From positions 1 through 64,000 of the forward strand of contig JAHDYJ010000006.1 in NCBI GenBank assembly GCA_023383795.1: DNA of 64,000 nt, in the 5' to 3' direction. Position numbers and translations under genes: made by a program. Below, in pieces: positions 54,218 to 58,240 of the stretch; position 1 is the first letter of the stretch; each line of letters starts with the position of its first letter. Below the pieces are notes generated by a model. It saw nothing but the letters and a program-made list of their open reading frames with translations. It searched no databases and was not told where the DNA came from. Source of the DNA: Burkholderiales bacterium. GTDB lineage: Bacteria; Pseudomonadota; Gammaproteobacteria; Burkholderiales; SG8-39.

Positions 54218-54319
54218 GGGCGCCGGGCAAGTATGCCACGCGTGACCTCGGTCACGCAGCCTGCTCGCGGGGTCCGGCGGCCGTTACCATAGCGATCCTT
54301 GCGCGGAACGCGAAGCTCG

Positions 54320-55534
54320 ATGCGGCACCTTCTCAGGCCGGTCACCCTGCTCGCCGCGGCGGCGGTCGTCGCCGCCACGTTCTTCGCCGTGCGCTGGTGG
54401 CTCGGGCCGCAGGTGCCCGCGGTCGCGGTGACCCGGGGCGGCATCGTGCAGACCGTCGTGTCGACCGGGCGCGTGATCACGCCCGCGCGCGTCGAGATCG
54501 GCGCGGTGATCACCGGCACGGCGGTCGCGGTGCGCGTGAAGGAGGGCGACCAGGTCAAGCAGGACCAGGTGCTCGCCGGCCTGCAGGACGAGGAGCTGCG
54601 CGCGGCGCTCGCGCAGGCGCGCGCCGCGCTGCGCGAGGCCGAGGCGCGCGTGACCCAGCTCGCGAAGGTCGGCCTGCCGGTCTCCGAGCAGACGGTCGCG
54701 CAGGCCGCCGCCAACCTCGAGCTCGCCGAGCGCGAGCACGCCCGCATCAAGCAGCTCTACGAGTCCGGCTTCTACGGCAAGGCGCGGCTCGACGAGGCGG
54801 AGCGCAATCTCGACAACGCCCGCGCGGCGCACAAGTCCGCGCTGGCGCAGGCGGCGTCCAACCGCCCGCAGGGCAGCGACTACGCGCTCGCGATCGCGCG
54901 GCAGTCGCAGGCGCGCGCGGCGGTCGAGGTGGCCGAGGCGAAGCTCGCGAACACGGTGATCAGGGCGCCGGCCGACGGCACGGTGCTCCGCAAGTTCGTC
55001 GAGCCCGGCGACGTCGTGCAGCCGGGGAAGAAGCTCTTCGAGATGTCGGTCGCGGGCGAGACGCAGCTCGTGCTGCAGGTCGACGAGAAGAACCTGCGCT
55101 TCCTGCGGCTCGGCCAGGCCGCGCTCGCGGTGGCCGACGCGTATCCCGGCGGGACGTTCTCCGCGGAGATCTTCTACATCGCGCCCTCGGTCGATGCGCA
55201 GCGCGGCTCGGTGGAGGTGAAGCTGCGCGTGCCCGATCCGCCCGAGTTCCTGAGGCCGGACATGACCGTCTCGGCCGAGATCGAGGCCGCGCGCAAGTCC
55301 GACGCCGTGATCGTCGCGAGCGACGCGGTCCGCGACGCTGCCGGTCCCTCGCCCTGGATCATGATCGCCGCCGACGGCCGCGCGGCGAGGCGCCCGGTCA
55401 GGCTCGGCATCCGCGGCGTGGGCAAGACCGAGCTGCTCGAAGGCGCCGCGCCCGGCGATCTGGTCATCCCGCCTTCGGTCGCCGGAGTTATGGAGGGGGC
55501 GAGGGTGCGTGCGGTGGCGGATGGTGAGCGGTGA
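54320..55534 (+). CDS. Periplasmic adaptor (membrane fusion) protein, MacA/HlyD type
   Basis: 404 residues. One N-terminal membrane anchor is followed by a barrel-lipoyl arrangement: VVSTGRVITPARVEIGAVITGTAVAVRVKEGDQVKQ, a helical hairpin (about 100-200), then VIRAPADGTVLRKFVEPGDVVQPG. It links an inner-membrane ABC exporter to the outer membrane. ATG 54320 is preferred; an in-frame TTG at 54299 is possible. Its last codons are part of the GGTGAGCGG repeat array, so the repeat reaches to the gene end. Its permease partner begins only after a four-helix-bundle gene. Confidence 0.9.
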   Translation: MRHLLRPVTLLAAAAVVAATFFAVRWWLGPQVPAVAVTRGGIVQTVVSTGRVITPARVEIGAVITGTAVAVRVKEGDQVKQDQVLAGLQDEELRAALAQARAALREAEARVTQLAKVGLPVSEQTVAQAAANLELAEREHARIKQLYESGFYGKARLDEAERNLDNARAAHKSALAQAASNRPQGSDYALAIARQSQARAAVEVAEAKLANTVIRAPADGTVLRKFVEPGDVVQPGKKLFEMSVAGETQLVLQVDEKNLRFLRLGQAALAVADAYPGGTFSAEIFYIAPSVDAQRGSVEVKLRVPDPPEFLRPDMTVSAEIEAARKSDAVIVASDAVRDAAGPSPWIMIAADGRAARRPVRLGIRGVGKTELLEGAAPGDLVIPPSVAGVMEGARVRAVADGER

Positions 55535-55560
55535 ACGCTGAACGGTGAGCGGTGAGGGGC
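55523..55560. repeat. GGTGA-type array, left of the four-helix-bundle gene
   Basis: About four tandem imperfect units of the type GGTGAGC or GGTGAACG overlap the end of the adaptor gene. The mirror-image array (TTCACC type) lies at 56003-56026, so the two arrays form inverted ends around the small gene between them. Confidence 0.65.
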
Positions 55561-55577
55561 GAAGCCAAGGCGGGGTT

Positions 55578-55997
55578 ATGAGAGCCGCAGACGGGGCGCG
55601 AGGCGTCGCACCATCGCCGCGCGTCGCGCGCTCGGCATTGCCTCCGATCGGCAAGCCGCACTACCGGCTCGAGGCTTGGAAGCAGGCGATGGCGCTCGTC
55701 ACGGAAGTCTATCGTCTCACTTCGACACTGCCGAGCGAAGAGAAGTACGGGCTCGCGGCACAGATGCGCCGTGCGGCGGTATCGGTCCCGAGCAATATCG
55801 CCGAAGGCGCAGCACGGGAAACCAGAAAGGAATTCGCACAGTTCCTGACAATAGCTCGCGGGTCGCTGTCCGCGCTCGAGACCCAGCTGCTCAGCGCGAG
55901 CAACCTGGGCTACCTGCACGCCGACAAGGAAGTTCACGCCGTGATGCAACGCGTTTCCAGACTGCTCACGGGCCTGCTACGCAGCGCGAGGCGCTGA
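55578..55997 (+). CDS. Four-helix-bundle protein (S23 / TIGR02436 family)
   Basis: 139 residues. From about residue 27 it matches the family closely: YRLEAWKQAMALVTEVYRLT, AAQMRRAAVSVPSNIAEG, then KEFAQFLTIARGSLSALETQ. Such proteins are encoded in 23S rRNA intervening sequences and in scattered intergenic spots, and are related to the Avd accessory protein of diversity-generating retroelements; no general function is known. The gene sits between the adaptor and permease of an exporter operon. It is flanked by inverted GGTGA arrays and uses more A/T-ending codons than its neighbours. It looks like an inserted element. Confidence 0.9.
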   Translation: MRAADGARGVAPSPRVARSALPPIGKPHYRLEAWKQAMALVTEVYRLTSTLPSEEKYGLAAQMRRAAVSVPSNIAEGAARETRKEFAQFLTIARGSLSALETQLLSASNLGYLHADKEVHAVMQRVSRLLTGLLRSARR

Positions 55998-56002
55998 TCG
56001 GC

Positions 56003-56026
56003 ACCGTTCACCGTTCACTGTTCACC
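56003..56026. repeat. TTCACC-type array, right of the four-helix-bundle gene
   Basis: About three imperfect units (ACCGTTC, ACCGTTC, ACTGTTC, ACC) in reverse orientation to the array at 55523-55560. It ends 6 bases before the permease start codon and so replaces the normal ribosome-binding region of that gene. Confidence 0.65.
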
Positions 56027-56032
56027 CCTTTC

Positions 56033-57247
56033 ATGCGCTTTGAGTGGATCGTGGCGACGCGCTTCCTGCGCGAGGGGCGCATGCAGACCGCGCTGATCCT
56101 CGGCGGGACGGCGGTCGGCGTGGCGGTGATCCTCTTCATCACCGCGCTCATCAACAGCCTGCAGGTGAGCCTCGCGACGCGCACGCTGAACACCCAGGCG
56201 CACATCGTCGTGCGGCCGCCCGACGACGCGGCGAGCCGCGCGCTCGCGCCCGCGGACGCGAGCGTCGCGGCGCGCGTCGAGGCGCGCGCGCAGCGGCTGC
56301 GCTCGATCGACCAGTGGGAGGCCGTCTTCCGGCGGCTCGAGGGGACGGCGCGCGTCACCGCGGTGTCGCCGGTGGTGAGCGGCTCGGGCACGGCCCTGCG
56401 CGGCAACGCCAACCGCGCGATCGCGCTCTTCGGCATCGAGCCGGAGCGCTACGTTCGCATCGTAAAGATCACCGACTTCATGGTGGCCGGGGAGTTCCGC
56501 GTGAGCCCGGGCAACGCGGTGATCGGGGTCGAGCTCGCGGCCGACCTCGGCGCGACGGTCGGCGACCGCATCCGCGTGACCACGCCGGAGGGCGGCAACG
56601 ACGTCTTCCTGGTCACCGGGCTCTTCGATCTCGGCGTGAAGGACGTGAACAAGCGCTGGGCGCTGGTGCCGCTCAAGACCGCGCAGGCGCTGCTCGCGCT
56701 GCCGGGCGGGGTCACCAACGTCGACCTCACGGTCGACGACATCTTCGCGGCGGAGGAGGTCGCGCGGCTGATCGAGGGCGGCACCGGCCTCAAGGCCGAG
56801 AGCTGGATGGCGATCAACACCCAGCTCCTCGCCGCGTTCGACAACCAGACCATGACCACGCGCGTCATCCGCGCGTTCGTCGTGCTGATCGTCGCGCTCG
56901 GCATCGCGAGCGTGCTGGTGGTCTCGGTGGTGCAGAAGCAGAAGGAGATCGGCATCCTGCGCGCGATGGGCGCGTCGCCCGGGCGGATCATGCGGGTGTT
57001 CCTGATCCAGGGTGCGATCGTCGGCACCGCGGGCGCCGTGGTCGGGTCGGCGGTCGCCGCGGCCATGGTGGCGGTGGCGAAGCGCGTCCTGCTCGCCGAG
57101 GACGGCACGCCGCTCATCACCGGCGGCATCGAGCCCTACATGCTCGCCGGCGGGGCGCTGGTCGCGCTCGCGACCGGCCTGCTCGCCGCCGTCGCGCCGG
57201 CGCGCCGCGCCGCCAAGCTCGACCCGGTGCAGGCGATACGGGGGTAG
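56033..57247 (+). CDS. ABC exporter permease, FtsX/MacB-LolC type
   Basis: 404 residues with the four-helix FtsX topology: one N-terminal segment ([20 protein letters not shown]), a long periplasmic domain (about 45-270), then three segments beginning [55 protein letters not shown] is the characteristic C-terminus. It works with the adaptor before it and the ATPase after it. The ribosome-binding region is occupied by the GTTCACC repeat, so translation may be weak or altered. Confidence 0.9.
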
Positions 57248-57304: not shown

Positions 57305-57382
57305 GGTCGTACGAACAAGGGGGAGATCCCCCTTGTATATCCCCCAATCCGAACAAGGGGCACGCCCCTTGTATATCCCCTC
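57305..57382 (+). repeat. Stem-loop repeat, family B, copy 2
   Basis: GGTCGTACGAACAAGGGG followed by CCCCTTGTATATCCCC, then GAACAAGGGG and CCCCTTGTATATCCCC: two perfect hairpins in tandem with short loops. The same words in the same order occur on the minus strand at 9210-9344. It lies between the permease and ATPase genes of the exporter operon and would form strong RNA hairpins on that transcript. Confidence 0.75.
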
Positions 57383-57401: not shown

Positions 57402-58121
<720 letters not shown>

Positions 58122-58126
58122 CTGGC

Positions 58127-58240
58127 GGGTGATGGGTGATGGGGGTCAGGCAAGTCGATCGGGCGTGCGCGCCCTTTGCTTGCACGGCAATCCCGGGCCG
58201 CCGCTGTTGCGCACTGCGCATCACCCCATCACCCATCACC
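58127..58240. repeat. Inverted GGTGATGG array pair
   Basis: GGGTGATGGGTGATGGGGGT at 58127-58146 is mirrored by ATCACCCCATCACCCATCAC at 58220-58239. The 73-base core between them has no open frame I would support. It begins 5 bases after the exporter ATPase stop. The style (tandem GGTGA-type units in opposite orientation) matches the arrays around the four-helix-bundle gene, but no gene lies inside. Confidence 0.7.

Follow-up and report, generated by a model that had tools for sequence, protein, structure and literature searches.

A small S23-family gene between inverted heptamer arrays in an exporter operon looks like a copy of a widespread mobile element

The S23 gene family first came to notice through insertions in the ribosomal RNA of bacteria. 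These 23S rRNA intervening sequences (IVSs), which carry an S23 open reading frame in Leptospira, Coxiella and other bacteria, are about 430-500 bp long, end in terminal inverted repeats and occur patchily, as do the elements described here. In Coxiella, tandem GACAGAT heptamers lie 5' of the S23 frame in strain-variable number, and the protein of structure 2GSC has been described as a homopentamer; mobility of IVSs is an old hypothesis with an unclear mechanism (PMC4990558). Tandem heptamers have also been described between protein-coding genes. TAACTGA repeats occur in Beggiatoaceae, cyanobacteria and Bacteroidetes with no evident mechanism of spread (PMC4679880), and GGGAATC repeats occur in Xanthomonas with no general association with mobile elements, including 70 and 75 convergent pairs in two genomes (PMC4692102). 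Like the arrays reported below, these are dispersed tandem heptamers near gene starts, but neither study names an associated four-helix-bundle protein. REPIN/RAYT systems and MITEs are likewise small, have inverted repeats, lie at gene junctions and include gene-less copies; unlike them, S23 elements end in tandem arrays that vary in length and letters and have no transposase gene. The IVS papers that we found do not describe array ends as a general feature, an element-specific heptamer, empty sites or gene-less derivatives. IVSs and heptamer repeats were thus known separately, and a search of the literature, made up mostly of open-access articles, found no published link between the TIGR02436 family and heptamer arrays outside rRNA, which is the connection drawn here.

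The window, a 64,000-nucleotide stretch of a Burkholderiales draft genome, contains a four-helix-bundle gene enclosed by inverted tandem heptamer arrays within an exporter operon (Table 1). The gene product matches TIGR02436 with 112.5 bits (cut-off 24) and PF05635 with 117.4 bits (cut-off 33.8), and its sole sequence relative in the PDB is 2GSC (E 2.4e-32), an entry with five chains. The only families matched by the reading frame of the element are four-helix-bundle families, and no transposase is encoded. The start codon is likely the ATG at 55578, as the longest frame opens at a GTG (55545) within the left array. The window copy thus has an S23-type frame between terminal inverted repeats, as 23S rRNA IVSs do, but it lies between the adaptor and permease genes and not in a 23S rRNA gene, as do most sampled copies in lying between protein-coding genes.

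Table 1. Features of the exporter operon and its inserted elements in the window
Feature	Position	Strand	Remarks
HlyD/MacA-like periplasmic adaptor gene	54299..55534	+	TIGR01730, 171.6 bits; upstream of insertion
Left heptamer array, 5 units	55523..55557	+	GGTGAGC/GGTGAAC type; contains adaptor stop TGA 55532-55534
Four-helix-bundle (S23/IVP) gene, TIGR02436/PF05635	55578..55997	+	Profile matches; PDB relative 2GSC
Right heptamer array, about 3.6 units	56002..56026	-	Inverted relative to left array
MacB/LolC-like permease gene	56033..57247	+	PF02687 and PF12704; downstream of insertion
ABC ATPase (LolD/MacB-like) gene, same operon	57402..58121	+	TIGR02211, 258 bits
Second, gene-less element	58127..58240	.	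GGGTGAT array 58127-58144, inverted array 58220-58240, hairpin-rich spacer

The arrays on both sides of the gene are real. The original prediction described units of eight letters, GGTGA(A/G)CG; the tandem arrangement stands, but the period is seven. The left array reads GGTGAGC GGTGAAC GCTGAAC GGTGAGC GGTGAGG and the right array CACCGTT CACCGTT CACTGTT CACC, together forming a 28-nt inverted repeat with 86% complementarity. None of 1000 dinucleotide-preserving shuffles of the flanks matched the score of either array, and the inverted match between them (observed 20) was reached in none of 200 shuffles (maximum 13). As predicted, the left array runs through the stop codon of the adaptor gene. 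The right array, said to fill the ribosome-binding region of the permease gene, ends 6 nt upstream of the ATG. The reported preference for A/T-ending codons also held, with a GC3 of 0.747 compared to 0.91-1.00 in 330-nt segments of the neighbouring genes. A stem pairing the two arrays is predicted in RNA, with a z of only -1.8.

The adaptor and permease genes are adjacent in related operons. A DNA search for the window operon within the same genus returned only short spurious matches, so the permease protein was used as the query, and orthologues were found across the family. The 11 best-matching orthologous operons (46-62% protein identity) all had adjacent adaptor and permease genes, with no four-helix gene found between them, in agreement with the original view of the gene as an insertion that separates the two. 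By this comparison, 55523-56026 is an insertion in the exporter operon. The empty state of this locus is known only from these relatives, which at 46-62% identity place the insertion no more closely than between the two genes.

Closer pairs of filled and empty sites were available for related units in other genomes. One cyanobacterial element (L089) differs from its empty counterpart (L098) by a clean gap of 428 bp with GTAAT on both sides and flanks that are about 98% identical, and in a second pair (L103 and L092) TTCTA is duplicated. A 5-bp target duplication is clean in just these two pairs, which are from related elements. Empty sites were also found for L079 and L081; there, at L092 and at a site in a rhizobia-like genus (a label taken from gene content) no unambiguous target duplication was seen, and L082 compared with L217 gave no clean junction. 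The cyanobacterial element occurs at three different sites (L085, L089, L215) between which similarity is confined to the stretch from array to array, about 418 bp, and decayed and gene-less derivatives (L100, L101) lie at the L089 site. Two identical copies in G277 are copies of 23S rRNA and therefore do not define ends. The outer edges of the arrays mark where similarity between copies at different sites ends, and they also match the insertion junctions at empty sites. The suggestion that the arrays are the ends of a small mobile cassette is supported by the empty sites and by related units at different sites. Mobility is read here from comparisons of sites, in which the unit looks like a mobile element.

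In the rhizobia-like genus, one junction could be followed across 30 species, of which 10 are filled and 20 empty, with array length varying greatly. The four-helix gene at this junction has a dN/dS of 0.070 and is under purifying selection there. Two loci without the gene (L162, L169) have a palindromic insert at the junction, where the intergenic distance is 87-88 nt instead of the usual 30 or so; this is apparently another small repeat family.

Inverted heptamer arrays are a general feature of TIGR02436 genes. The family is patchy, being present in 5 of 61 relatives and in 50 of 299 genomes of a phylum sample, and a scan of genome contigs returned one locus. We surveyed 250-bp flanks of 77 TIGR02436 loci from Pseudomonadota, Cyanobacteriota, Bacteroidota, Gemmatimonadota and one deltaproteobacterial MAG, with stretches 600 bp further out as controls. 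The top repeat period was 7 or 14 in 63/77 left and 66/77 right flanks, as compared to 9/77 and 9/76 in controls. With an inverted match defined by a score of 15 or more, left and right flanks were inverted copies of each other in 59 of the 77 loci. This count is conservative, since at some loci (L085, L089) the annotated gene runs into the right array. The same score was reached by 31 of 462 mismatched left-right pairs (6.7%), by 3/76 controls and, in direct orientation, by 11/77 loci. Thus the predicted inverted arrays do flank other family members, but a shared GGTGA motif does not. What the elements have in common is a tandem heptamer in inverted orientation with element-specific letters; in Gemmatirosa an octamer takes its place. 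The only other copy in the host genome (L002), whose protein is 37% identical to that of the window, has inverted GTTGGCA/TGCCAAC arrays.

Gene junctions within operons are the preferred location of the element, which is also found in 23S rRNA. Neighbouring genes were co-directional in 27 of the 34 loci where both could be called, and gene boundaries mostly lay no more than about 30 nt from the edge of the array. Sites on plasmid records include nrdB/nrdA, hlyD/hlyB, cas6/cas4 and sufA/sufB. The cas6-cas4 junction is occupied on cyanobacterial plasmids of both Pseudanabaena galeata and Anabaena sp. 90 (L083, L216), with different heptamers. In Nostoc 'Peltigera' cyanobiont N6 (L093) the annotated four-helix gene spans only 240 nt and aligns with the intact copy by blastn in separate pieces, which suggests an interrupted copy. 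Two sampled elements, one in Azospirillum lipoferum (L087) and one at L116/L117, are located within 23S rRNA and likewise show inverted heptamer arrays, placing the classical IVSs in the same class. It follows that the classical IVS is one kind of site for a heptamer-ended S23 element. A phage origin was rejected, with no match to the element in 50,697 phage records.

Arrays are far more numerous than S23 genes in the host genome, which has many dispersed arrays of both heptamer types belonging to its two elements. Inverted pairs made up 26 of 47 sampled array loci and were mostly 54-250 bp long. The spacers of gene-less pairs are mostly unrelated to each other, which is the main fact left unexplained by simple copying, as in a copy-and-paste miniature element. 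The assembly is a draft of 234 contigs, and heptamer arrays stand at many contig ends (L015, L030, L181, L187, L200, L202); they are therefore a probable cause of assembly breaks, and the number of arrays counted is a minimum. In the rhizobia-like genus, several genomes have arrays but no TIGR02436 gene, and in several others the gene is present but that heptamer is not.

More similar proteins tend to have more similar heptamers. Across 40 independent sites the Mantel r between protein identity and heptamer similarity was -0.285 (reached in 0/2000 permutations), changing to -0.205 (1/3000) once flank GC and heptamer composition were controlled for and to a weaker -0.132 (26/3000) in the fully controlled test with several related loci removed. 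This covariation could reflect recognition of a cognate heptamer by each protein, or joint inheritance without binding. Since 7 is not a multiple of 3, a stop codon within the heptamer recurs in all three frames; this was the case for the inward strands of 58 of 104 arrays and for 19 outward strands. Among 66 distinct heptamers, 35 have this property, where 27.4 +- 3.2 are expected from base composition, so the excess is modest and much of it follows from composition.

Taken together, 55523-56026 is probably a copy of a mobile element with a broad distribution, consisting of a small S23/TIGR02436 gene and inverted heptamer-array ends, because the same layout recurs in several phyla at sites that are empty in relatives. 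We propose that the S23 protein, which forms a homopentamer in the solved relative 2GSC, binds its own heptamers sequence-specifically, either as DNA or as RNA, and that it may mark or protect the ends while the unit is inserted by a cut-and-fill process with a duplication of about 5 bp. The element encodes no recombinase, and catalysis would come from a host or trans-acting enzyme that could also move gene-less inverted arrays in trans. Insertion within operons may be tolerated because the inward strand often has stops in all three frames and a purine-rich sequence resembling a ribosome-binding site, and because the arrays could pair into an RNA stem, like that of 23S rRNA IVSs, which RNase III removes. 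More tentatively, and at somewhat less than even odds, S23/TIGR02436 genes may form the core of a transposable-element class in its own right, one that lacks a recombinase. In that view a pentameric protein would recognize its cognate heptamer, the arrays would be the ends, and host enzymes recruited by the protein would place the unit, and in trans also gene-less pairs, into gene junctions and rRNA; IVSs and intergenic heptamer repeats would then both be products of this system. If true, this would add a minimal class of mobile element that inserts in operons without a recombinase gene. It would also join two puzzles, the spread of 23S rRNA IVSs and the presence of tandem heptamers between genes in unrelated bacteria, and would give an uncharacterized protein family a testable role, as each protein is predicted to bind its own heptamer.

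Several other explanations were weighed against this one. The heptamer arrays could be independent dispersed repeats, such as hairpins grown by slippage, with the gene as a passenger that landed in, or recombined between, inverted arrays. That most array pairs in the host genome carry no gene, that array length is so variable among species and that spacers are unrelated all fit this account; the absence of arrays and gene together from empty sites, the presence of arrays at nearly every sampled copy of the gene and the covariation of heptamer and protein count against it, and we consider it unlikely. An old regulatory or structural insert passed on by vertical descent and no longer mobile, for example an mRNA-processing stem with an RNA-binding protein, would agree with purifying selection at one site and with the same junction being filled in several species of one genus, where the split between filled and empty may reflect one old gain followed by losses. 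The suggestion from the Coxiella IVS that the RNA matters more than the protein (PMC4990558) also leans this way. Presence in only 5/61 relatives, related units at different sites, empty sites and cyanobacterial plasmid copies make it highly improbable.

Two further possibilities supply an enzyme from a described system. The S23 protein resembles Avd of diversity-generating retroelements in being a four-helix bundle with weak profile similarity, and could be the Avd-like partner to a reverse transcriptase that acts in trans on the hairpin RNA of the element; its score of 19.7 bits falls far below the Avd cut-off of 80 bits (NF033474), however, no RVT_1 match was found in the draft host genome, and RVT_1 occurs in 15/50 genomes with TIGR02436 and 82/249 without (odds ratio 0.87, p 0.74). 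Dependence on reverse transcriptase was thus rejected, and a retroelement-like process is quite improbable. The short dispersed inverted pairs at gene junctions resemble REPINs, which would suggest single-strand transposition of the REPIN/RAYT or IS200 type by a Y1 transposase acting on hairpin arrays. Y1_Tnp (PF01797) was also without a match in the draft host genome and without association across the 299 genomes (31/50 with and 143/249 without TIGR02436; odds ratio 1.21, p 0.64), so dependence on this enzyme was rejected as well. Insertion of the IS200 type makes no target duplication, whereas the two clean empty-site pairs have one, and this route appears the most improbable of those considered.

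The window operon contains further repeats downstream of the insertion. The second, gene-less element lies just 3' of the ATPase gene, and its predicted RNA fold is strong (-70.6 kcal/mol, z -4.3). Between the permease and ATPase genes are two similar tandem hairpin-forming repeats (GAACAAGGGG...CCCCTTGTATATCCCC) at 57311-57382, which belong to a different repeat family.
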